Below are positions 19,272 through 29,847 of a stretch of 35,826 bases of DNA, piece after piece. The notes beneath the pieces are model-generated. The model had not been told where the DNA came from, searched no databases, and saw only the letters and a list, made by a program, of their open reading frames with translations. Each line of letters starts with the position of its first letter. Position 1 is the first letter of the stretch. The DNA is from Thiotrichaceae bacterium (GTDB lineage: Bacteria > Pseudomonadota > Gammaproteobacteria > Beggiatoales > Beggiatoaceae): positions 1 to 35,826 of the forward strand of contig JAOZSV010000022.1 of assembly GCA_029939505.1 (NCBI GenBank), read 5' to 3'. Made by a program: the position numbers and the translations under genes.

Positions 19272-20729
19272 TTAAAAATCAATCACTTGTCGTAGTTGAA
19301 CCGCTAACCAAGGACACGCAAAACTGAGCCAAATACCCTCTTTGAATAGCATAAAACTCAATGGGATCAGTGCGATTATCAAAAAAGCAGAATAGAGTGC
19401 TCCCCATAATTTGCCGTATTTGATGAGTAGAAAACTGGTTAGTACAATCAGTATTGTGGCAAATAATAATATCCACCAATTGGAAGGGGGATGCAAGATT
19501 CCGTATTGTAGCAATGATTGGATGCTATTGACTAAGACGAGCATTCCGGGCATCCAGCCTAACGGTGTTGCGTGCCAATCTCGCCCTTCTATATAACTGC
19601 CGCATAAGATGGTGATGCTGTCACGCAAAGGTTCGTCGCTGGCTCCTTTCTTCAGAATTTTGTTGGCAGACATGATGGTGAGTAAATCACGCCCGCCGGA
19701 GACAGAGGGTCGTGTTTCGCCCCCGCTTAAATACCAAGGAATAGTATAAAGAATACGGCGGCTGAGGCGTGTCGGGTGCAAGTCAAATACTAAATCTTTA
19801 GAAACTTGAAATTCTGTCGGTTTATGCTGTAACGCTTCGCTTGTCCATTTTTTGGGACTTTGCTGACAGTTGGGCAGAAAATAACTCAAGTGGTGGCGCA
19901 ACCGGCACGCGCTAGGGAGTGTATTGGGTTCCTCTTCTTCAACCAATAGTGCCGCTGTTAATAAGGGCATAGAGGGAATGATATCGGGGACATTTTGGGT
20001 GCAAGTCGTTGTCCATAAGTCCCAACGGCGCAATAGGCGATCATGTTCTCGTTCATATTCTGTGGTGGCCCAATAAATATGGGGGGAACGCATGACAATC
20101 TGATCTAAAAAAGTCGGGCGTTGTGCCAGATAATAGGGGGGCGTTTTTGGATCAAATGGTCTCATTCCCTTTGGTAAACGAAAAGTTCGTGCCAACAAAA
20201 TCGCCGGGCAATCCGATTCGCTACAATGTGTTTTTTCATATTGAGCCAAATAGTGCTGGAGGGCTAAATCATCGGGGTGTAAGCCCTCTTCTTGATGTGG
20301 TTGTTTGTCGATAGCAATATCCACAATAATCAATTTTGGCTGACCTTTAATTGCAAATTCTAATAATTTCAACAACTTATCGCGTGGTGTAAAAAAAGGT
20401 TCTCCCCAAGCTTGATAAGTGTCTTCATCAATATCCAATATGACAAAGGGCGGTGTATTTTCTTTAACCAAATCACCGCGATAAAGCGTCATCATCCAAT
20501 CAAGACTTAAATCCTCAATTTCCGCCACCCATTGCCCATGACGTAATCCAATCAATAGCAATGTAATTAACACGCCAAAAACGACGTTTTTATAAAATGG
20601 CGATAATCGTTGCCATAGTTTCTTGATAGAAGAAAAGAAAGGGGAAAATGGCCGAAAAATCCACCCTAATCCGTTAGCGATTTTTTTTAATAATGGTCGT
20701 GAAATCAGCCGCTTGAGTAATTTTTTCAT
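19272..20729 (-). CDS. CHASE2-domain membrane protein without output domain
   Basis: The 485 residues start with a basic cytoplasmic segment and one membrane helix (NVVFGVLITLLLIGL, about residues 49-64). An extracytoplasmic CHASE2 sensor-like domain (about 70-410) follows, with the diagnostic FVILDIDEDTY, LIIVDIAID and GWMPGMLVLVNSIQSLL segments. Three closely spaced C-terminal membrane helices end the protein. CHASE2 normally precedes a kinase, cyclase or phosphatase, but here the chain stops right after the helices, so any signal output must come from a partner. ATG 20729 has AAAGG about 8 nt upstream. No adjacent gene in the same orientation supplies an output domain. The ligand is unknown. 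Confidence 0.85.
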   Translation of the reverse strand: MKKLLKRLISRPLLKKIANGLGWIFRPFSPFFSSIKKLWQRLSPFYKNVVFGVLITLLLIGLRHGQWVAEIEDLSLDWMMTLYRGDLVKENTPPFVILDIDEDTYQAWGEPFFTPRDKLLKLLEFAIKGQPKLIIVDIAIDKQPHQEEGLHPDDLALQHYLAQYEKTHCSESDCPAILLARTFRLPKGMRPFDPKTPPYYLAQRPTFLDQIVMRSPHIYWATTEYEREHDRLLRRWDLWTTTCTQNVPDIIPSMPLLTAALLVEEEEPNTLPSACRLRHHLSYFLPNCQQSPKKWTSEALQHKPTEFQVSKDLVFDLHPTRLSRRILYTIPWYLSGGETRPSVSGGRDLLTIMSANKILKKGASDEPLRDSITILCGSYIEGRDWHATPLGWMPGMLVLVNSIQSLLQYGILHPPSNWWILLFATILIVLTSFLLIKYGKLWGALYSAFLIIALIPLSFMLFKEGIWLSFACPWLAVQLRQVIDF

Positions 20730-20887: not shown

Positions 20888-21220
20888 TTAACCAATAGCA
20901 AATCCAGTATATTGCCTTTTATAGGGCGCGTGAAAAGCCAATACGATGTCTTCTTTGGGAACACCTAATGCCACGAATTCATTTGCCATTCCGATTTCCG
21001 TACCATCATGCTGAATCCATATCTTGTCGTTTTTGAGATCGATATGCAATACGCACCCATAAGTACGTCGATTATTACGCCAACCGACATGAACTAATTG
21101 ATAATGATCATGTTTTTCATCAGTGATGATTTGTGTTTCAACATCATCATTAGATGAAAAATGTCTATATTTTTCAAGGAGCTTCTGAACGTGAACTCGG
21201 TATTTTTCTATGGTTTCCAT
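20888..21220 (-). CDS. xisI: XisI family protein
   Basis: The 110-residue protein closely fits the XisI family, known from cyanobacteria as a factor needed for fdxN element excision but widespread outside that context. Recognisable segments are the N-terminal YR..VQKLL, the central HYQLV.VGW...RR.YGC..HIDL.N.KIWIQHDGTE, and the C-terminal LGVP.EDIVLAFH....R.YT.FAIG. The start overlaps the end of xisH by 13 nt, indicating translational coupling. It is the last gene of the apparent five-gene - strand operon beginning at 22944. The molecular function is unknown. With XisH it may form a nuclease/regulator or toxin/antitoxin-like pair (inference). Confidence 0.9.
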   Translation of the reverse strand: METIEKYRVHVQKLLEKYRHFSSNDDVETQIITDEKHDHYQLVHVGWRNNRRTYGCVLHIDLKNDKIWIQHDGTEIGMANEFVALGVPKEDIVLAFHAPYKRQYTGFAIG

Positions 21221-21624
21221 TTTACAATGATCTGTTTTTCAATGTCATAGATAATTAAATTGAGTTGATAGTCTTCAATAGCCGTTTGGACAAATTTGAG
21301 CGTAAAAAAACTGTCAAAAGTATCCATTGGTACTGCCAAATAAAGACTCCGTTTTGGTTCTGTGTTTTTTAAAGCGAGACGATAATTCATAAATTGCCCC
21401 ACTGCCAAGTGGAAATCATAAATAGTGGAGGCACCGGAAAAACTTTTAATCTCAACTGCAATTTTCCGTTTCGCCTTTTCAGCTGCAATAATTTTTTCGG
21501 CTCCTAAATCAATGTACATTTCGACTCCGCCCACTCTTATAGAGAGCGGATCATCAGTAATTGTCCAGCCTTCCTTAATTAAGGATTCCTTAACAGTATC
21601 ATGGAAAATGTCTTTTGCTGGCAT
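21208..21624 (-). CDS. xisH: XisH family protein (restriction-endonuclease-like fold)
   Basis: The 138 residues match XisH: the MPAKDIFHD.VK.AL.KEGW.IT.DP N-terminus, the DLGAEK segment and the VEIKSFSG core. D39, E58 and K60 are arranged as in a PD-(D/E)xK nuclease site, so the protein may cleave DNA or may be a pseudo-nuclease. An AAGGGG Shine-Dalgarno overlaps the end of the preceding gene, whose stop is only 5 nt upstream, and xisI overlaps its 3' end. In cyanobacteria XisH and XisI are required together with XisF for excision of the fdxN element. Here no recombinase is present, so a different role in this operon is likely. Confidence 0.9.
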   Translation of the reverse strand: MPAKDIFHDTVKESLIKEGWTITDDPLSIRVGGVEMYIDLGAEKIIAAEKAKRKIAVEIKSFSGASTIYDFHLAVGQFMNYRLALKNTEPKRSLYLAVPMDTFDSFFTLKFVQTAIEDYQLNLIIYDIEKQIIVKWKP

Positions 21625-21629
21625 TGGTT

Positions 21630-21935
21630 TTAATTCCCCTTTATTAACGCTTTCCGCAATTCCCGCGCAGGGCCATAATTATTAGCAATATCAAAGACTT
21701 GTTGATAGTCTTCAAATGACCATTTGATACGATCTTGTTTTGCCAGCCATCCCGCTTGTAAGGTGCGACGCATTTTTTCAGGTAGAGTATTGTCTTTCAA
21801 CGGTTTGGGGTAATCGGGGAGTTTTGTTACTGCTTCAAATTCTAATTCCGTCGGCGGTTTGGCCTGATTGGCAGTGATGATGATCCAATTGGCTTGGTTC
21901 ATATCGTATTCGTCTTTCATTTCAAAATGATTCAT
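21630..21935 (-). CDS. 101-aa protein of unknown function in the toxin-antitoxin/Xis operon
   Basis: I do not recognise this protein. It is acidic to neutral with no signal peptide or membrane segment. It shows an N-terminal strand-like NWIIITAN, a Pro-rich middle (TKLPDYPKPLKDNTLPEKMRRTLQ) and a helical C-terminus (YQQVFDIANNYGPARELRKALIKGN). Its ATG overlaps the stop of the preceding gene as ATGA (21932-21935), and xisH starts 5 nt after its stop, so it is firmly part of the operon. A diverged fragment of a second copy of its C-terminus lies at 23002-23063, so this is a small gene family. It may be an antitoxin or adaptor (inference). Confidence 0.75.
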   Translation of the reverse strand: MNHFEMKDEYDMNQANWIIITANQAKPPTELEFEAVTKLPDYPKPLKDNTLPEKMRRTLQAGWLAKQDRIKWSFEDYQQVFDIANNYGPARELRKALIKGN

Positions 21936-22372
21936 AAGTTTTTCTCTGGCATTGACGTGAATTGTGACAATTGAACCGTTAAAACTTCAATTTGTTTTAT
22001 CATAATATCATCACAGCTAATTGCACATTCAAGTAATTCTTTAGTAATGCTATTAGGAAGTATGGCAAGCGTTCTGATTTCTCCAGAAAAATGTTTTGCA
22101 AGTAATTTAGCGGCGGTTAATTCAAAAAATTCATCAAGCCCAATCCAAGTATCCTTTTCTAAACAACATGAATTTTGAGGTAGAAAAAAATTAGGATACC
22201 GATTTTGGGTTTGACAACCCTGCTCTAAACCTTTGCAAGTCTCTTTAGAGGTTGTCTTAACAACAACATAGTACCCGACACTGCCATCATTTAGAACCAC
22301 TAAAATTTTTTTACCCATATTGCCATCAGAAAATCTAAACTGATCGTCAACCAATAATGTACCTGCTTTCAT
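21932..22372 (-). CDS. Putative toxin paired with a Panacea antitoxin
   Basis: The 146-residue protein is encoded directly behind a Panacea-domain gene with an ATGA overlap (22369-22372), the standard layout of Panacea toxin-antitoxin pairs. The N-terminus (MKAGTLLVDDQFRFSDGNMGKKILVVLND) and the C-terminal half (DTWIGLDEFFELTAAKLL, LAILPNSITKELLECAISCDDI) follow the strand and helix order of MazF/PemK-like RNases. The similarity is only a pattern. Five cysteines lie between residues 46 and 70 and near 117-120, unusual for that family. An unrelated new toxin fold is equally possible. The next gene also overlaps as ATGA. Confidence 0.65.
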   Translation of the reverse strand: MKAGTLLVDDQFRFSDGNMGKKILVVLNDGSVGYYVVVKTTSKETCKGLEQGCQTQNRYPNFFLPQNSCCLEKDTWIGLDEFFELTAAKLLAKHFSGEIRTLAILPNSITKELLECAISCDDIMIKQIEVLTVQLSQFTSMPEKNL

Positions 22373-22944
22373 AAATAATGACTCACTATTTCTTGATGTG
22401 CTTCGCTAAGTTCTCTGATGACTTCTTTTTCCGCAGAAGTTAATACATATTCATAAGGTATAAGATGTTGTTGTTTGCCTTCCTGAATATAGACCCGTTG
22501 CCAAGGTTTATGTTCTAAATGAGTTGCTTCGATTATTTCTTCGGCAGAAGTATCGTGATATTGATTCGCCAGATGTTCCATTAAACGAAGTTCACGTTGA
22601 CTAAAATAACATTTATCAAATTTTGCAATGGGTTTAATATAAATCATTAAGCCATTTTTGATTGGAATGGATTCAAATTGGATGCGACTGAGCATATCAG
22701 GTGCGGGCAGATCAAACTCTGCGTATAAATCCACTGGTACTGGACCCAAGGGCCAAGCATAGTAATTTAAACCCGTCACACTACGTCCAATTTGCTTATA
22801 ATGCTCAAAATCTAGGAAATACATTAATTTAAATAACTTGACTTTGCCACATTTTTGAGTATTTTGAGCAAAATAAACCATGGCATTAATCAACTTTTCA
22901 CGCTGATGATTTATTAGCAAACCGTGATGATGATGTTTAAGCAT
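22369..22944 (-). CDS. Panacea (SocA-like, DUF4065) antitoxin
   Basis: The 191 residues contain the Panacea domain: KLFKLMYFLDFEHYKQIGRSVTGL, then YYAWPLGPVPVDLYAE, and a C-terminal half with SAEEIIEATHLEHKPW and LTSAEKEVIREL. Panacea is known as a promiscuous antitoxin domain that neutralises many unrelated toxins encoded next to it. The ATG at 22944 is chosen because GAGG lies 8 nt upstream. A GTG at 22986 would add 14 residues with no Shine-Dalgarno. A run of four His follows the start codons (KHHHHG). It is the first gene of the operon Panacea-toxin-orf101-xisH-xisI. Confidence 0.88.
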   Translation of the reverse strand: MLKHHHHGLLINHQREKLINAMVYFAQNTQKCGKVKLFKLMYFLDFEHYKQIGRSVTGLNYYAWPLGPVPVDLYAEFDLPAPDMLSRIQFESIPIKNGLMIYIKPIAKFDKCYFSQRELRLMEHLANQYHDTSAEEIIEATHLEHKPWQRVYIQEGKQQHLIPYEYVLTSAEKEVIRELSEAHQEIVSHYL

Positions 22945-23001
22945 TTTATTAACCTCAAGTTTGCAGGACGAAGCGGAGTTTGCCACTTCGTCCGAAACAT
23001 T

Positions 23002-23063
23002 TTAATGTACTAACGCTTTCCGCAATTCCCGTGCAGGGCCATAATTATTAGCCAGGGCGAACA
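23002..23063 (-). pseudogene. C-terminal fragment of a second copy of the 101-aa gene
   Basis: In the - strand the frame reads VFALANNYGPARELRKALVH then TAA (stop 23002-23004), against VFDIANNYGPARELRKALIKGN in the intact gene. About 42 nt (23011-23052) match 21645-21686 with one mismatch. No matching upstream part remains, so this is a remnant of a duplicated or neighbouring module, placed just upstream of the Panacea gene. Confidence 0.7.
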
Positions 23064-23282: not shown

Positions 23283-26201
23283 TTAACGAGAATAAAAAGA
23301 AAAATTCTCATTCAATTCATCATAATACCCCGGTGATTGCTTTCCACCAGTGTTATTAACGACTTCTTTACGCACTTTTCTGAGTACCTTATTAATGGAC
23401 ATATGAGGTTTTTGCATCCAGTTCATCAGAGAGACAACATAAAGGCTATTGCGCCCTCTCCCAACCATCGCAATGCGACCTGGGCTGGCAACATAAGCAA
23501 TCAATGAACCCGAAGTGGTTTTCATTGGACTTAAACCCGGCAGTATCATTTCGTCTTTAAATAAATTCTTGATAAAGGTAGGCGCACGACGACAGGCATC
23601 TAAAATAAACAGATTAACCCGATTACCAGCGGATTCCATCGTGGTTTGGATATAATTGGCAGCCACTGTTTTATAACGCAATTGTTTTGGGTTTTTCAAT
23701 AAATCTGCCCCATCCACAGGGATCAGATAATTGGTTCCCTGATATTGCACGCCATGTCCTGAGAAATAGAATAAACCCACGCCAGGATTTTGACGTAATT
23801 TTTCATCAAATTCCAGAATCGCTTCTCCCATCTCGGCATAGTTTAGATTATGTTTTTCAATCACCTCAAAATGGAGATTTCTTAAAACAGCCGCTAAATC
23901 TGTGGCATCATTCACCGGATTTATTAAAGGCACGTCGTCTTGATAAGCGGCGTTGCCAATGATTAAGGCAGTACGTTTTTTGGGCTGTGTTTCTCGCGTT
24001 TTTTGAGCGATTTGCGTCTTTTCTTGATTAGCCAGAGTAATAGCACGCTCGGCCTCTCCGATTTGCAAAGCCAGTTGAAGAATATCAGGGCGGTGGTAGA
24101 AGGATTTATGATTGTCGTATTTCTCAATTCCAGCTACTTGTTTACCAACACGAACATTAATATATTGTTCACCATTTGGCGAAGCGACATAGTAACCTTG
24201 TTTGGGCATAATGGCAACGCTTTCACCATCCTTAAAACCAACCATTTGGATAATTTCTTCTTGGATAATTTCTTCATCTTTTTCAAGATTCCATAAACGT
24301 ATGGTATCCTTACTTCCCGATAAAGCGATTTGGCCATCTGGGGAAAAAGCGACGGAATTAACAGCCGATTTATGTCCTTCTAATATTTTGAGGACGCGCC
24401 CCGTCGATAAATCCCACCATTTTACCGTTTTATCCTCACTACCCGACAAGACGGTTTGGCCATCGGGGGAAAACGCGACGGATTTAACAGAAGAAAAGGG
24501 TTTAAGTAAAGAGGGATGTTCTTTTAATGTTTTGACGACGCTCCCCGTCAATAAATTCCACAATTTCACCGTACCCTTACTGCCCGACAAGGCGGTTTGG
24601 CCATCGGGGGAAAACGCGACGGATTTAACATTCTTGGAATGTCCTTTTAATGTTTTGAGAACGTCCCCCGTCGATAATTTCCACAATTTCACCGTTTTAT
24701 CATCACTGCCCGACAAAGCGGTTTGGCCATCGGGGGAAAACGCGACGGAATTAACCCTCTTGGAATGTCCTTCTAATGTTTTATTGAGGCCCCCTTTCGA
24801 TAAATCCCACCATTTCACCGTGTTATCATCACTGCCCGACAAGGCTTCTTTTCCATTGGGAGAAAACGCAACGGAATTAACAGAAGAGGTATGTCCTTTT
24901 AATGTTTTAATGACGCGCCCCCTCAATAAAAAATCCCACCATAAATAACTCCACCATTTCACTGTCGATAAATTCCACAATTTCACCGTTTTATCATCAC
25001 TGCCCGACAAGGCGGTTTGGCCATCAGGGGAAAACGCAAGGGAATTAATCATATTGGAATGTCCTTTTAATGTTTTGAGGATGCGCCCCGTCGATAAATC
25101 CCACCATTTTACCGTTTTATCCATTTTATCCATTTTATCTGTTTTATCCGTTTTATCCTCACTGCCCGACAAGGCGGTTTTGCCATCAGGGGAAAACGCG
25201 ACAGATTTTAATTTGACAACTGAGGAATCTTCTTCTAATGAGAAATGTCCTTCTAATGTTTTGATTTTTATGATGCGCCCCGTCGATAAATCCCACGTTT
25301 TCACCATTTTATCCTCAAAATAACTCAATAATGCGGTTTGGCCATTGGGAGAAAACGCGACGGAATTAACCCAATTGGAATGCTGTTTTAATGTTTTTAT
25401 GACGCGCCCTGTCGATAAATTCCACAATTTCATTGTGTTATCCTCACTGCCCGACAAGGCGGTTTTGCCATCGGGAGAAAACGCCACTGAATTAACAGAA
25501 TCGGAATGTCCTTCTAATGTTTTAATGACGCGCCCCGTCCATAAATATTTCAACTTTAAATAATCCCACCATTTAACCGGCGATAAATCCCACCATTTAA
25601 CCGTGTTATCCTTACTGCCCGACAAGGCGGTTTTGCCATCGGGGGAAAACGCGACGGAATTAATAGAAGAGGTATGTCCTTTTAATGTTTTGAGGACGCG
25701 CCCCGTCGATAAATCCCACAATATCACCGTATCATAAAAACCCGACAAAGCGGTTTTGCCATCAGGGGAAAACGCGACGGATTTGTTATTCGTATTAGAG
25801 AAATGTCCGTATGCCTTGAGGACGCGCCCCGTCGATAAATCCCACCATTTCACCGTATCATTACTGTTCGACAAGGCGGTTTTGCCATCAGGGGAAAGCG
25901 CGACAAAATTAACATCATCGACATGTTCTTTTAATGTTTTGAGGACGCGCCCTCTTGATAAATTCCACCATTTCACCGTACCATAACTGCCCGACAAGGC
26001 GGTTTTGCCATCGGGGGAAAACGCGACGAAATTAACCTCATCGGAATCGGAAGGTTTCACTTGCACAAATACCTCATCCACTTCTTGTGGAGAAACGGAT
26101 GGTAAAGTAGTCGTAGAGGCTTGTGATGGTTGCATTAATAACCAATTCACCACGACACAGATTAGCAATGTTAGGCTGATTTTTATCATTTTCTTTAACA
26201 T
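23283..26201 (-). CDS. Secreted WD40-repeat caspase-like protease (peptidase C14)
   Basis: The 972-residue protein has a signal peptide (hydrophobic ISLTLLICVVVNWLLM, likely cleaved after QAS). About 13 WD40 repeats follow (roughly residues 45-640), each with SVAFSPDGKTALSGS...TVKWWDLSTGRVLKTLKGH, enough for nearly two propellers. A linker of about 100 residues leads to a caspase/metacaspase domain (about 744-972) starting RTALIIGNAAY. The catalytic dyad is present: His in YFSGHGVQ (about H816) and Cys in FILDACR (about C870). ATG 26201 has GAGGAAA just upstream. Several repeats carry in-frame insertions. Such proteins are frequent in multicellular cyanobacteria and large sulfur bacteria. Proteolysis triggered by WD40 sensing is an inference. 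Confidence 0.92.
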   Translation of the reverse strand: MLKKMIKISLTLLICVVVNWLLMQPSQASTTTLPSVSPQEVDEVFVQVKPSDSDEVNFVAFSPDGKTALSGSYGTVKWWNLSRGRVLKTLKEHVDDVNFVALSPDGKTALSNSNDTVKWWDLSTGRVLKAYGHFSNTNNKSVAFSPDGKTALSGFYDTVILWDLSTGRVLKTLKGHTSSINSVAFSPDGKTALSGSKDNTVKWWDLSPVKWWDYLKLKYLWTGRVIKTLEGHSDSVNSVAFSPDGKTALSGSEDNTMKLWNLSTGRVIKTLKQHSNWVNSVAFSPNGQTALLSYFEDKMVKTWDLSTGRIIKIKTLEGHFSLEEDSSVVKLKSVAFSPDGKTALSGSEDKTDKTDKMDKMDKTVKWWDLSTGRILKTLKGHSNMINSLAFSPDGQTALSGSDDKTVKLWNLSTVKWWSYLWWDFLLRGRVIKTLKGHTSSVNSVAFSPNGKEALSGSDDNTVKWWDLSKGGLNKTLEGHSKRVNSVAFSPDGQTALSGSDDKTVKLWKLSTGDVLKTLKGHSKNVKSVAFSPDGQTALSGSKGTVKLWNLLTGSVVKTLKEHPSLLKPFSSVKSVAFSPDGQTVLSGSEDKTVKWWDLSTGRVLKILEGHKSAVNSVAFSPDGQIALSGSKDTIRLWNLEKDEEIIQEEIIQMVGFKDGESVAIMPKQGYYVASPNGEQYINVRVGKQVAGIEKYDNHKSFYHRPDILQLALQIGEAERAITLANQEKTQIAQKTRETQPKKRTALIIGNAAYQDDVPLINPVNDATDLAAVLRNLHFEVIEKHNLNYAEMGEAILEFDEKLRQNPGVGLFYFSGHGVQYQGTNYLIPVDGADLLKNPKQLRYKTVAANYIQTTMESAGNRVNLFILDACRRAPTFIKNLFKDEMILPGLSPMKTTSGSLIAYVASPGRIAMVGRGRNSLYVVSLMNWMQKPHMSINKVLRKVRKEVVNNTGGKQSPGYYDELNENFSFYSR
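25114..25158. repeat. 9-bp tandem repeat inside the WD40 gene
   Basis: Five units of a TTTTATCC(A/G)-type nonamer lie in a row. On the - strand they encode DKTDKTDKMDKMDKT within one WD40 repeat, where other repeats have a single DKT. This is an in-frame expansion, likely by replication slippage. Confidence 0.85.
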
Positions 26202-26731
26202 ATTTTCCTCATTATTTTGAACAGGATTGATTAAAAGATTAACAGGATGAAAAAACATGAGTATTCTTCATACTCGCTTGCTTTAATAGGAACATAAAAA
26301 ATAATGATACTCTTTTAAATTAATCCTGTCAATCCATTAATCCGTTCGAGGCGAAAGTTTTTTGAAGAAAAACTTTCGCCTCGAATCCTGTTCAAAAGTG
26401 TTTGATTTGCGAAGGTATTAAAAATAACCTATAAAATAGTACAGCGGATTGCCGGAATAAACGGATTTTTTCAATTCAGAGTATATTATATACAATGTCG
26501 TTATTGTTTTTTTTGTAACGACAACGCTTGCTATTAATTGAACTCAACTTCCAATTCTTTTATATTTCTTTAATGTTCAGGATACTAATTAAGTCTTTGT
26601 AAAACTCGTTAGCCTTGAAATAAATTTCAAGGCTAAAAGCTAAAATCGGCTCAAGCCGACTACTACTAATTTAACTTCTTTTAGTCCGCTTTAGCTGACT
26701 TGAGCTTTTAGCCTTGAAATTTATTTCAAGG
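26202..26731. repeat. Repeat region between the intact and the decayed WD40-caspase genes
   Basis: There is no intact gene in these 530 bases. It holds an AACAGGATTGATTAAAAGATTAACAGG-type leader also seen at 31930-32045, and a perfect TTCGAGGCGAAAG hairpin (26345-26385). It also holds the first 43 nt of the 95-bp repeat (26437-26479) and the left arm plus loop of the large inverted repeat at 26606-26739. Confidence 0.7.
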
Positions 26732-26739
26732 CTAACGAG
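26606..26739. repeat. Inverted repeat with 37-bp arms that are themselves palindromes
   Basis: Left arm 26606-26642 (CTCGTTAGCCTTGAAATAAA...) and right arm 26703-26739 are near-perfect complements, and each contains a TTAGCCTTGAAAT / ATTTCAAGGCTAA palindrome. The loop holds a smaller AAGCCGAC/GTCCGCTT-type pair. The right arm runs into the 3' end of the WD40-caspase pseudogene and supplies its TAG stop. Confidence 0.75.
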
Positions 26740-27677
26740 AAAAATAAAAATCTTCATTCAATTCATCATAATACCCTGGTGACTGCTTTCCATCAGTGTT
26801 ATTAACGACTTCATTACGCACGCCTCTGAGTACCTGATTAATGGACAGATTAGGTTTTTGTATCCAGTTCATTAGAGATGAAACATAAGGGCTATTGCGC
26901 CCTATCCCAACCATCGCAACGCCACCGGGGCTGGCGGCATAAGCAATCAATGAACCCGAAGTGTTTTTCATAGAACCTAAGCCCGGCAATGTCATTTCGC
27001 TTTTAAATAAACTCTTGATAAAAGTAAGTGTTTTTTTACGACAGGCATCTAAAATAAACAGATTAATACGTTTACCGGCTGTTTTCATCGTGGTTTGAAC
27101 ATCATTCACTATTTGGCGAAGCGACATAGTAACCTTGTTTAGGCATAATGGCCACTTCACCATCCTTAAAACCATGCATTTGGATAATTTCTTCACCCGT
27201 TTCAAGATTCCATAAGCGTGTACAGTGACTATCGCCAGACAAGGCGGTTTTGCTATCAGGGGAAAATGCGACGGAATAAACCGTAGAGGAATGTCCTTTT
27301 AATATTTTGATGACGCGCCCAGTCGATAAATCCCACCATTTCACCGTGTGATCACTTCCCGACAAGGCGGTTCTGCCATCAGGGGAAAATGCGACAGATT
27401 CTATATTGGAATACACTTCTAATGTTTTGATAACGCGCCCCGTCGATAAATTCCACAATTTCAGCGTTTTATCATTACTTCCAGACAAGGCGGTTTTGCC
27501 ATCAGGGGAAAACGCGACGGATTTAATCTCAGAGGAATGCCTTATCTGCACTTCTTCCACCTCTGGCGGGGTAAGGGGTAACAAATAAGCGAGTGAGGGT
27601 TGCATTATTAATAACCAACTCACCGCTATACCAATTAGCAATGCCATTAGGCTGAAGATTGTAATTTTCTTTGACAT
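26732..27677 (-). pseudogene. Decayed WD40-caspase paralogue
   Basis: The 5' part (27102-27677) encodes a signal peptide, three clear WD40 repeats and a fourth partial one, and the same linker (GFKDGEVAIMPKQGYYVASPN), then hits a stop. In another frame the 3' part (to 26732) continues with the second half of the caspase domain: TTMKTAGKRINLFILDACRKK through SPGYYDELNEDFYFSR. Compared with the intact neighbour, about 170 codons are missing at the junction near 27100, including the catalytic His, and the frame is shifted. The Cys remains. The 5' part could still yield a secreted 191-aa WD40 protein. The ATG 27677 has AGGAGAACATAC upstream, so translation of that part is plausible. Confidence 0.85.
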
Positions 27678-27930: not shown

Positions 27931-28776
27931 TCATTGCTGTTGAATTCGCTCTTTAAGTTCTAATAAATCCTGATGTTGACTCAGTTCTAAATGAGCAGTT
28001 GCCCAAGCGCAAAATTTATCCAAAGAAATTGAATTTGGCTTTTCTTTCTGCATGGCTTTTTTCAAGTCTTTACCATGAAACCACACGAGGTACTTTTTTT
28101 GCGCCCAAAATTCAGTCTCTTGGAAATTTTCTTGATAGGCGTTCATCAGTTTTTCAAACTCATCAAAGTTCACGCCTTTCATTGAGTCCGTGAAGTTTTC
28201 AATCAACTTGTTAGCTTCTTTCTTACAATCATCCATCTTGAGTGAAGGGGGCAAATGCCCACTGCCTTTTGTCCAAGTGGTTTCGACTTGTGGCCATCGT
28301 TTACCCGGTTTTAAAGTCGCTAAAGCCCATCGAACTGTTTGATAATCATTAATGTTTTCAGCACTCTGTTTTATCCACGTCTCAATATTCTGAATACTAG
28401 GGGATTCGCCATGTTTCCATTTTGGTCCCAGGGCCATTTCATTCCAGTAATCATGAATTAGCGTTGCATCCAATAAATAATTTTCAATACAAGCACGGTG
28501 GCTAAACAAAACCGGCTTGGTAGGAAATGGCATAATTAACTTAATCTCTGACGGTGGCTCCGCGTCAAAATCTCGATCCCGAAATGCCAGATAGGATGGT
28601 TTTTGATTCACATAAGAAGAAAGTCGCCCCTGAATAAAAGCCCCCAATCCATATTTACCACCAGCAGGAATGACGATATTTGGATTACCAACTAAACGGG
28701 CTAAAATGGCATAATCAAGACTATCAGGTTTACCCTCACAAAACAACAATTTTGTGCTTAGACTTATCACACTCAC
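27931..28776 (-). CDS. AriB-like DUF4435 Toprim protein (PARIS-like effector)
   Basis: The 281 residues show an N-terminal Toprim-like core: LLFCEGKPDSLDY with acidic E14, then YLAFRDRDFD with D67 and D69. The DUF4435 hallmark RACIENYLLD follows at about residues 94-103. In PARIS phage-defence systems AriB is the DUF4435 Toprim nuclease, released by the AriA ATPase when a phage anti-restriction protein is sensed. This gene follows an AAA ATPase by 3 nt. The start is a GTG with GGAGG about 9 nt upstream, inside the end of the ATPase gene. DUF4435 also occurs beside ATPases outside strict PARIS, so 'PARIS-like' is the safe call. Confidence 0.8.
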   Translation of the reverse strand: MSVISLSTKLLFCEGKPDSLDYAILARLVGNPNIVIPAGGKYGLGAFIQGRLSSYVNQKPSYLAFRDRDFDAEPPSEIKLIMPFPTKPVLFSHRACIENYLLDATLIHDYWNEMALGPKWKHGESPSIQNIETWIKQSAENINDYQTVRWALATLKPGKRWPQVETTWTKGSGHLPPSLKMDDCKKEANKLIENFTDSMKGVNFDEFEKLMNAYQENFQETEFWAQKKYLVWFHGKDLKKAMQKEKPNSISLDKFCAWATAHLELSQHQDLLELKERIQQQ

Positions 28777-28779
28777 AAT

Positions 28780-29847
28780 TTAGTCCTCCAAACGGATAAT
28801 GGATTCATAAGGAGAATCATCAGGTAAAATCTGCTCAATATAATCAGAATGCGTGCTAATAATAAATTGATTATTTTGACCCATTTTGGGCAGGGCGCGG
28901 AGAAGGGCTTGTTGCATTGGTGGATGCAGATGTAGTTCAATTTCATCAATTAGGATGACAGAATGATGAATATTCCAATTCACAAAATCGAATAAAATCG
29001 GAAAAATCGCCTTTTCACCGCCCGACATTTCTGAAATTTCATACTGATGCAAACCATCGTTAAAATAAAACCAAGGTTCACTCAATATGTCATCAATATC
29101 AGGACGCAACAACGTTCCTTCAAAACGACGCTCAGGGAAAACGGTTTGATAGGCTTTTTGCAGTTCGACAAATAAATCCTTTTTTCGACTAAGTGCTTTA
29201 AATCTTCCCATTGATAGCTGTTGATGAAATAGGGCAAATTTGGACAGGCGATCACGCAGTAATTCCTCAGATATGTTAATGGTTTTGCCGTTATGCTCCG
29301 AGGTTAAACTGGTAGCGGTTCGTTGTTCGGTGTACCAAAAAACGGTTCCCACCTGCTCGAATAGTTTATAACCTTCAGGATGCGTTTTAACGATTTGTTT
29401 TGCATAGTCTCGCCCTTTAAACTGAGACAATGTCTCTGGTGTATTTGCATGGACTTTGTCATTTTGGAGTGTCAAGTTTACAAACCTGTTATCGGAAGGC
29501 GGACTTAAATGACTAACTAACTGATTTTTATGGTAAAAATATTTTGTAGCGGTGATTTCTGCCGCTGAAAACTCTACCTCCATTTTTATCGAAGTAGGCA
29601 GCTGCCAATTGTTGTTAGCCAATTCCAAATCAAATCCGGGCCAATTTAAATCATTCAATTTTTTTAAGCGTCCCGTTGCATTGCCCAAGACGGCGGCGAT
29701 GGCTTGCAGAATGCTGGTTTTTCCTGAGCCATTATTTCCGACTAAAACAATCAAGTTTTTAGCCAAACCTGTTTCATGATCAGTAAAATCAAGCAATTGT
29801 TCACGAAATCGTTTGAAATTTTTTAGGTGTAGTGATTGAACTTTCAT
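28780..29847 (-). CDS. AriA-like AAA/ABC-type ATPase (PARIS-like sensor)
   Basis: The 355 residues have an SMC/ABC-type ATPase head. Walker A is GNNGSGKTS (38-45), the ABC signature is SGGEKA (275-280), Walker B is VILIDEIELHLHP (297-309) and the switch His is H333 in ISTHSDYI. The middle (about 90-260) is a variable insertion. It resembles the AAA_15/AAA_21 group that includes AriA, other OLD-like ATPases and overcoming-defence ATPases. It is shorter than the AriA proteins I recall. Its ATG overlaps the stop of the preceding antitoxin-like frame as ATGA, and the DUF4435 gene follows 3 nt later, so this is a three-gene unit. There is no Shine-Dalgarno, so translation probably depends on coupling. 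Confidence 0.82.
   Translation of the reverse strand: MKVQSLHLKNFKRFREQLLDFTDHETGLAKNLIVLVGNNGSGKTSILQAIAAVLGNATGRLKKLNDLNWPGFDLELANNNWQLPTSIKMEVEFSAAEITATKYFYHKNQLVSHLSPPSDNRFVNLTLQNDKVHANTPETLSQFKGRDYAKQIVKTHPEGYKLFEQVGTVFWYTEQRTATSLTSEHNGKTINISEELLRDRLSKFALFHQQLSMGRFKALSRKKDLFVELQKAYQTVFPERRFEGTLLRPDIDDILSEPWFYFNDGLHQYEISEMSGGEKAIFPILFDFVNWNIHHSVILIDEIELHLHPPMQQALLRALPKMGQNNQFIISTHSDYIEQILPDDSPYESIIRLED

Follow-up and report, generated by a model that had tools for sequence, protein, structure and literature searches.

XisH and XisI are needed for the excision of the fdxN element in Anabaena. XisH has been modelled as an endonuclease and XisI as a recombination directionality factor (Hwang 2014, as cited in PMC4853749), and in the genome of Thiomargarita xisHI is present and a XisF homologue is absent (PMC4853749). 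PanA antitoxins of the Panacea type, paired with MazF-like PanT toxins, have already been described (Kurata et al. 2022, PMC8832971). In the window, by which we mean the whole stretch of 35,826 nucleotides that was analysed, relatives of both systems lie side by side on the minus strand, together with a fragment of a third, the BrnT/BrnA toxin-antitoxin. The features needed here are:

22369 to 22944, minus strand: PanA, a Panacea-domain (SocA-like) putative antitoxin of 191 aa (PF13274)
21932 to 22372, minus strand: PanT, a 146-aa putative mRNA-interferase toxin of predicted MazF/PemK fold (conserved pair, fold match)
21630 to 21935, minus strand: orf101, a chimeric remnant frame of 101 aa, not ancestral (DNA comparison with relatives)
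21208 to 21624, minus strand: xisH, an intact gene for a PD-(D/E)XK-type protein (PF08814)
20888 to 21220, minus strand: xisI, the XisH partner and putative antidote (PF08869)
19272 to 20729, minus strand: CHASE2-domain gene, the next downstream of xisI (PF05226, 1.7e-21)
23008 to 23052, minus strand: second copy of the tail of a gene for a protein of about 290 aa, upstream of the Panacea gene (95.6 % identity)

The five open reading frames, overlaps and spacings given in the first-pass annotation proved exact when the minus strand was re-examined. PanA starts at ATG 22944, with an alternative in-frame GTG at 22986, and its stop at 22369 falls within a 4-nt ATGA overlap with PanT (22369-22372); a second ATGA overlap joins the 146-aa frame to orf101 (21932-21935), orf101 ends at 21630, 5 nt before the xisH ATG at 21624, and xisI, starting at ATG 21220, overlaps xisH by 13 nt (21208-21220). 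Against Pfam, the Panacea protein matches SocA_Panacea PF13274 at 3.4e-20 (73.5 bits, cut-off 25.7), and XisH and XisI match their families over the full length (PF08814, 7.3e-59, residues 1-134 of 134; PF08869, 3.1e-46, 1-110 of 110), while the 146-aa and 101-aa frames had zero matches in Pfam, NCBIfam and PADLOC. The tight arrangement had been taken as the mark of one functional unit; we conclude that the region is very probably a composite scar, in which two unrelated pairs have become accidentally adjacent, and not a five-gene system.

The Panacea half resembles PanAT (Kurata et al. 2022, PMC8832971) in that the Panacea antitoxin comes first and overlaps its partner by 4 nt. The best relatives of PanA, in Parabeggiatoa (L007) and Thiomargarita (L008), are 80-83 % identical to it, with dN/dS of 0.05-0.07, and in both the toxin gene is cut short near residue 61. 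Three gammaproteobacterial genomes that are unrelated (L065, L066 and L067) hold complete pairs that overlap by 4 nt as here, and L013 holds a more distant Panacea-toxin pair. Furthermore, when IMG/VR was scanned with the Panacea alignment, 28 loci came up, some of them duplicates of one another. A full-length toxin-family frame (E <= 1e-30) lies at the Panacea 3' end in 21 of the 28, and in another four the match is partial or weaker; the pair with its 4-nt overlap is seen in at least 20 of these viral contigs. The 146-aa toxin was not found in plasmids, nor the L013 relative of the toxin in phage records, and an IMG/VR scan with the L065 toxin gave no match. No XisHI was seen near the relatives of the Panacea-146 pair in the stretches examined at L007, L008, L013 and L065-L067 and on the 28 viral contigs. 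As far as comparison of sequences can tell, the Panacea gene and the 146-aa frame are an autonomous, stand-alone pair. In Thiomargarita, Panacea/toxin is present a second time in degraded form, about 2.5 kb away (L008, 7430-7597). In the window, a small inverted repeat (gacgaag...cttcgtc, 22960-22990, minus strand) immediately precedes the Shine-Dalgarno of the Panacea gene, close to where the homology to L007 and L008 ends.

Folded alone, the 146-aa protein was predicted with a pLDDT of 36; AlphaFold2 run on an 11-row alignment that included 10 viral sequences gave pLDDT 88.2 and pTM 0.83. Foldseek of this model against the PDB returned MazF or Kid toxins as top matches (E 3e-4), the structural agreement with MazF/Kid structures reached Z 9-11 over about 100 residues (for 7bxy, Z 11.0, rmsd 3.2, 107 residues), and the top named matches in BFVD were PemK/MazF or endoribonuclease. 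By profile, similarity to PemK PF02452 did not reach significance (no Pfam match; hhalign probability 0.9 %, P 0.058). Structure prediction, which the first-pass annotation had proposed for this protein, thus gives a model with a MazF/PemK fold over most of its length, and the protein would be a putative PanT-type toxin of a known kind, likened by fold and gene order to the MazF-like PanTs of Pseudomonas moraviensis and Bifidobacterium ruminantium (PMC8832971). The conserved pairing and the MazF fold of the 146-aa model bear out the putative Panacea toxin-antitoxin pair, which is what these two frames look like; judging from the families, the Panacea protein would most likely bind and neutralise a MazF-like RNase. 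What is gained is a predicted MazF-fold identity for a widespread prophage PanT family without a Pfam match.

The second pair shares with the XisH/XisI of the Anabaena fdxN element its families (PF08814/PF08869), its PDB relatives (2inb, 2okf, 3d7q and 2nlv) and its gene order and overlap. Solved relatives are 2inb and 2okf for XisH and 3d7q, 2nlv, 2nwv and 2nvm for XisI. It differs in that neither XisF nor element borders were seen among the annotated neighbours of the window's xisHI, and in a loss pattern that is toxin-antidote-like. The XisH residues D39, E58 and K60, singled out in the first-pass annotation, are present in the window and invariant in an alignment of nine Beggiatoaceae homologues. 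In a census of 43 family genomes, mostly draft, a gene counted as intact if it covered at least 88 % of the profile without a stop. There were 41 intact XisH-XisI pairs and 41 lone intact XisI (22 beside a broken xisH, 19 without an xisH hit), against five lone intact XisH (four beside a broken XisI, one without a XisI hit). At least three of these five cases are not genuine: in L145 XisI is essentially complete, so that the case is a threshold artefact, the XisH of L144 lacks the residues around D39 and that of L141 is without its start and E43, an invariant residue; in L143 only the C-terminus of XisI is missing, and in L142 an insertion splits XisI. For a type II toxin-antitoxin one expects the antitoxin to outlast the toxin and a lone intact toxin to be rare, and this is what was found (41 versus 5). 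The repeated loss of XisH with XisI kept suggests a toxin-like nuclease in XisH and an antidote to it in XisI, a reading in line with the earlier proposal of a XisH nuclease controlled by XisI and one that we regard as probable for this pair. XisH would then be a PD-(D/E)XK nuclease-type toxin checked by XisI, with xisH lost first and xisI kept. For XisH/XisI in general, so far known chiefly for their help in fdxN excision, we lean, a little less firmly, towards the same putative nuclease toxin and antidote, with XisI kept after deletion of xisH and sometimes coupled to another gene. In the literature, of which our coverage was incomplete, no claim of XisI as an antitoxin was found. The reading offers a simple, testable claim on why XisHI is spread among bacteria that lack excision elements.

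The main competitor of this reading sees XisH and XisI as recombination helpers that serve XisF-type excision, the one as an endonuclease and the other as a directionality factor, without XisI being an antidote to XisH. The requirement for both proteins in fdxN excision and the published modelling mentioned above speak for such a role, which we nevertheless consider rather unlikely, as the Thiomargarita genome has xisHI without a XisF homologue and as a helper pair should be lost symmetrically, not 41 to 5; the asymmetry is predicted by a toxin with its antidote and not by a pair of helpers.

The excess of lone XisI could also be an artefact of gene length or assembly fragmentation, or reflect XisI with other partners. 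The census genomes are indeed mostly drafts, a divergent XisI subgroup (L127-L131) shows no trace of xisH, and in two Nostocales plasmids (L133 and L134, 863-1830) a 213-aa N6-methylase-like gene overlaps XisI by 4 nt in the place of XisH, which is possibly a swap of the XisI partner. Against this, the excess survives correction for length: in a length-corrected binomial, 22 of 26 loci, counting only those with detectable xisH remnants, gives p = 0.0014, and 41 of 46 gives p = 6e-7; both values are guides, as the copies are not fully independent. Moreover, the last 10-30 codons of xisH are recognisable directly upstream in eight or nine of the 16 lone xisI examined, some of them by eye, and the xisI ribosome site lies within these stumps. 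With eight further lone xisI of this kind, we find it improbable that an artefact or other partners account for the excess, and we keep to the toxin-antidote reading. XisI orthologues of the window's site are under strong constraint, with dN/dS of 0.11-0.14 in comparisons with relatives without xisH; between two genomes both without xisH the value is 0.12, part of which may predate the loss, and one xisI copy (G030) has a premature stop. XisI has matches in 46 plasmid records and XisH in 38, nearly all of them cyanobacterial; in nine records a match to XisI comes without one to XisH, and a further record has only a 41-residue XisH fragment. Among the eight of these nine that were examined, three have xisH-stump-like sequence before xisI and one a fused xisH start, partly judged by eye; two are the plasmids with the N6-methylase-like gene, and in one both genes are decayed. 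Neither XisH nor XisI was found in IMG/VR.

Between the two pairs lies orf101, which had been described as an unknown small protein. Compared with 43 genomes of the same family, its product nearly always aligns to the C-terminal third of proteins about 290 aa long, whose open frames reach up to about 400 aa and whose N-termini look, by eye, like secretion signals. The DNA match to a genome of the same genus (G034, L043) is in two blocks: 21938-21889 of the window corresponds to the 5' end of brnA (L043 2632-2583, 94 %), and 21889-21623 to the 3' end of a gene for 289 aa (L043 894-622, 87.5 %). The join, read by eye from the aligned blocks, is at 21889. L043 has both parents intact, with about 1.7 kb between the matching parts. 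This interval holds the remainder of brnA, a pair that looks RelBE-like by eye, and the initial 200 codons of the 289-aa gene; the intact brnA gives a PF14384 match of 4.4e-10. The first 50 nt of orf101 are thus the 5' end of a gene for a BrnA-type antitoxin, the point of likeness to BrnT/BrnA; the difference is that only about 50 nt are left here, not functional and with about 15 BrnA residues. The remainder of the frame is the final third of the secreted-protein gene, which genomes of the same genus have intact. The comparison indicates that orf101 is deletion debris, made of fragments of two deleted genes, and it rules out an unknown small gene. A 45-nt direct repeat (21642-21686 versus 23008-23052, 95.6 %) flanks PanA-PanT-orf101. 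One could instead imagine orf101 as a newborn functional gene, for example an antitoxin N-terminus joined to a binding domain and co-opted by one of the pairs, given that the frame is open and keeps register with the overlaps on either side, and that its tail has a dN/dS of 0.42. Relaxed selection gave no signal and cannot be inferred for orf101, because this value is no higher than that between intact relatives (0.48). The whole frame, however, is present in only one genome in a search of the 43, its tail derives from a secreted protein and BrnA contributes only those few residues, which makes a newborn gene very improbable.

The surroundings of xisHI point to a history of its own. In G033 (L044) and G030 (L045) a gene for a 290-aa secreted protein is followed by an xisH stump, xisI and a CHASE2 gene, with neither a Panacea gene nor the toxin gene, and the CHASE2 gene of G033 is 82 % identical to that of the window. 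G034 (L043) has the secreted-protein gene, a 30-nt xisH stump and a xisI 96 % identical to the window's, and upstream of where xisH would start it shares with the window the sequence ggggaattaaaaccaat; it follows that the 5-nt spacing, like the Shine-Dalgarno inside orf101, is a legacy of the old neighbour gene, and neither points to coupling with the Panacea pair. In G013 (L049), which is without xisHI, a 277-aa homologue of the secreted protein directly adjoins CHASE2, from which we infer that xisHI was inserted between the two genes. On this comparison, xisHI had neighbours of its own before the Panacea pair arrived. More generally, a signal-peptide-like protein of about 290 aa without a Pfam match recurs next to a CHASE2 gene in Beggiatoaceae (L043-L049; 19272-20729 in the window).

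An order of events compatible with these data (insertion, deletion, tail duplication) can be proposed. An older pair, the secreted protein of about 290 aa followed by the CHASE2 protein, would have been entered by xisH-xisI, and brnA-like and RelBE-like toxin-antitoxin genes would have arrived upstream of the secreted-protein gene. A deletion in this lineage would then have fused the beginning of brnA with the final third of that gene, giving the 101-aa chimera, and the Panacea-antitoxin/MazF-fold-toxin pair would have come to lie directly upstream of it. A search for co-occurrence, suggested in the first-pass annotation, found the two halves only apart elsewhere: PanA-PanT and XisHI were not found together among the relatives and viral contigs examined, which is one of the outcomes that the annotation had listed as counting against its reading. 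The view that PanA, PanT, orf101, XisH and XisI act together as a single composite defence or addiction operon, for which the tight spacing and the ATGA overlaps had been offered, is contradicted, and made extremely improbable, by the chimeric origin of orf101, the xisH-to-upstream-gene spacing that predates the arrival of Panacea (L043) and the separate occurrence of the halves. A false new defence operon is thereby removed, and the case teaches that, where mobile modules and deletions accumulate, gene overlaps and spacing can by themselves be a misleading guide; of lasting value are the identification of the predicted toxin fold and the testable XisH/XisI hypothesis.

Elsewhere in the window, the protein encoded at 23283-26258 (minus strand) combines WD40 repeats with a caspase-like peptidase domain. 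Another gene of the WD40/caspase type, at 26732-27677 (minus strand), is shorter, split over two frames and probably a decayed copy. A DUF4435 protein and an AAA_15 ATPase at 27931-29847 (minus strand), with PADLOC matches to AriB (2e-9) and AriA (1e-29) and also to PtuA, form a PARIS-like defence pair.
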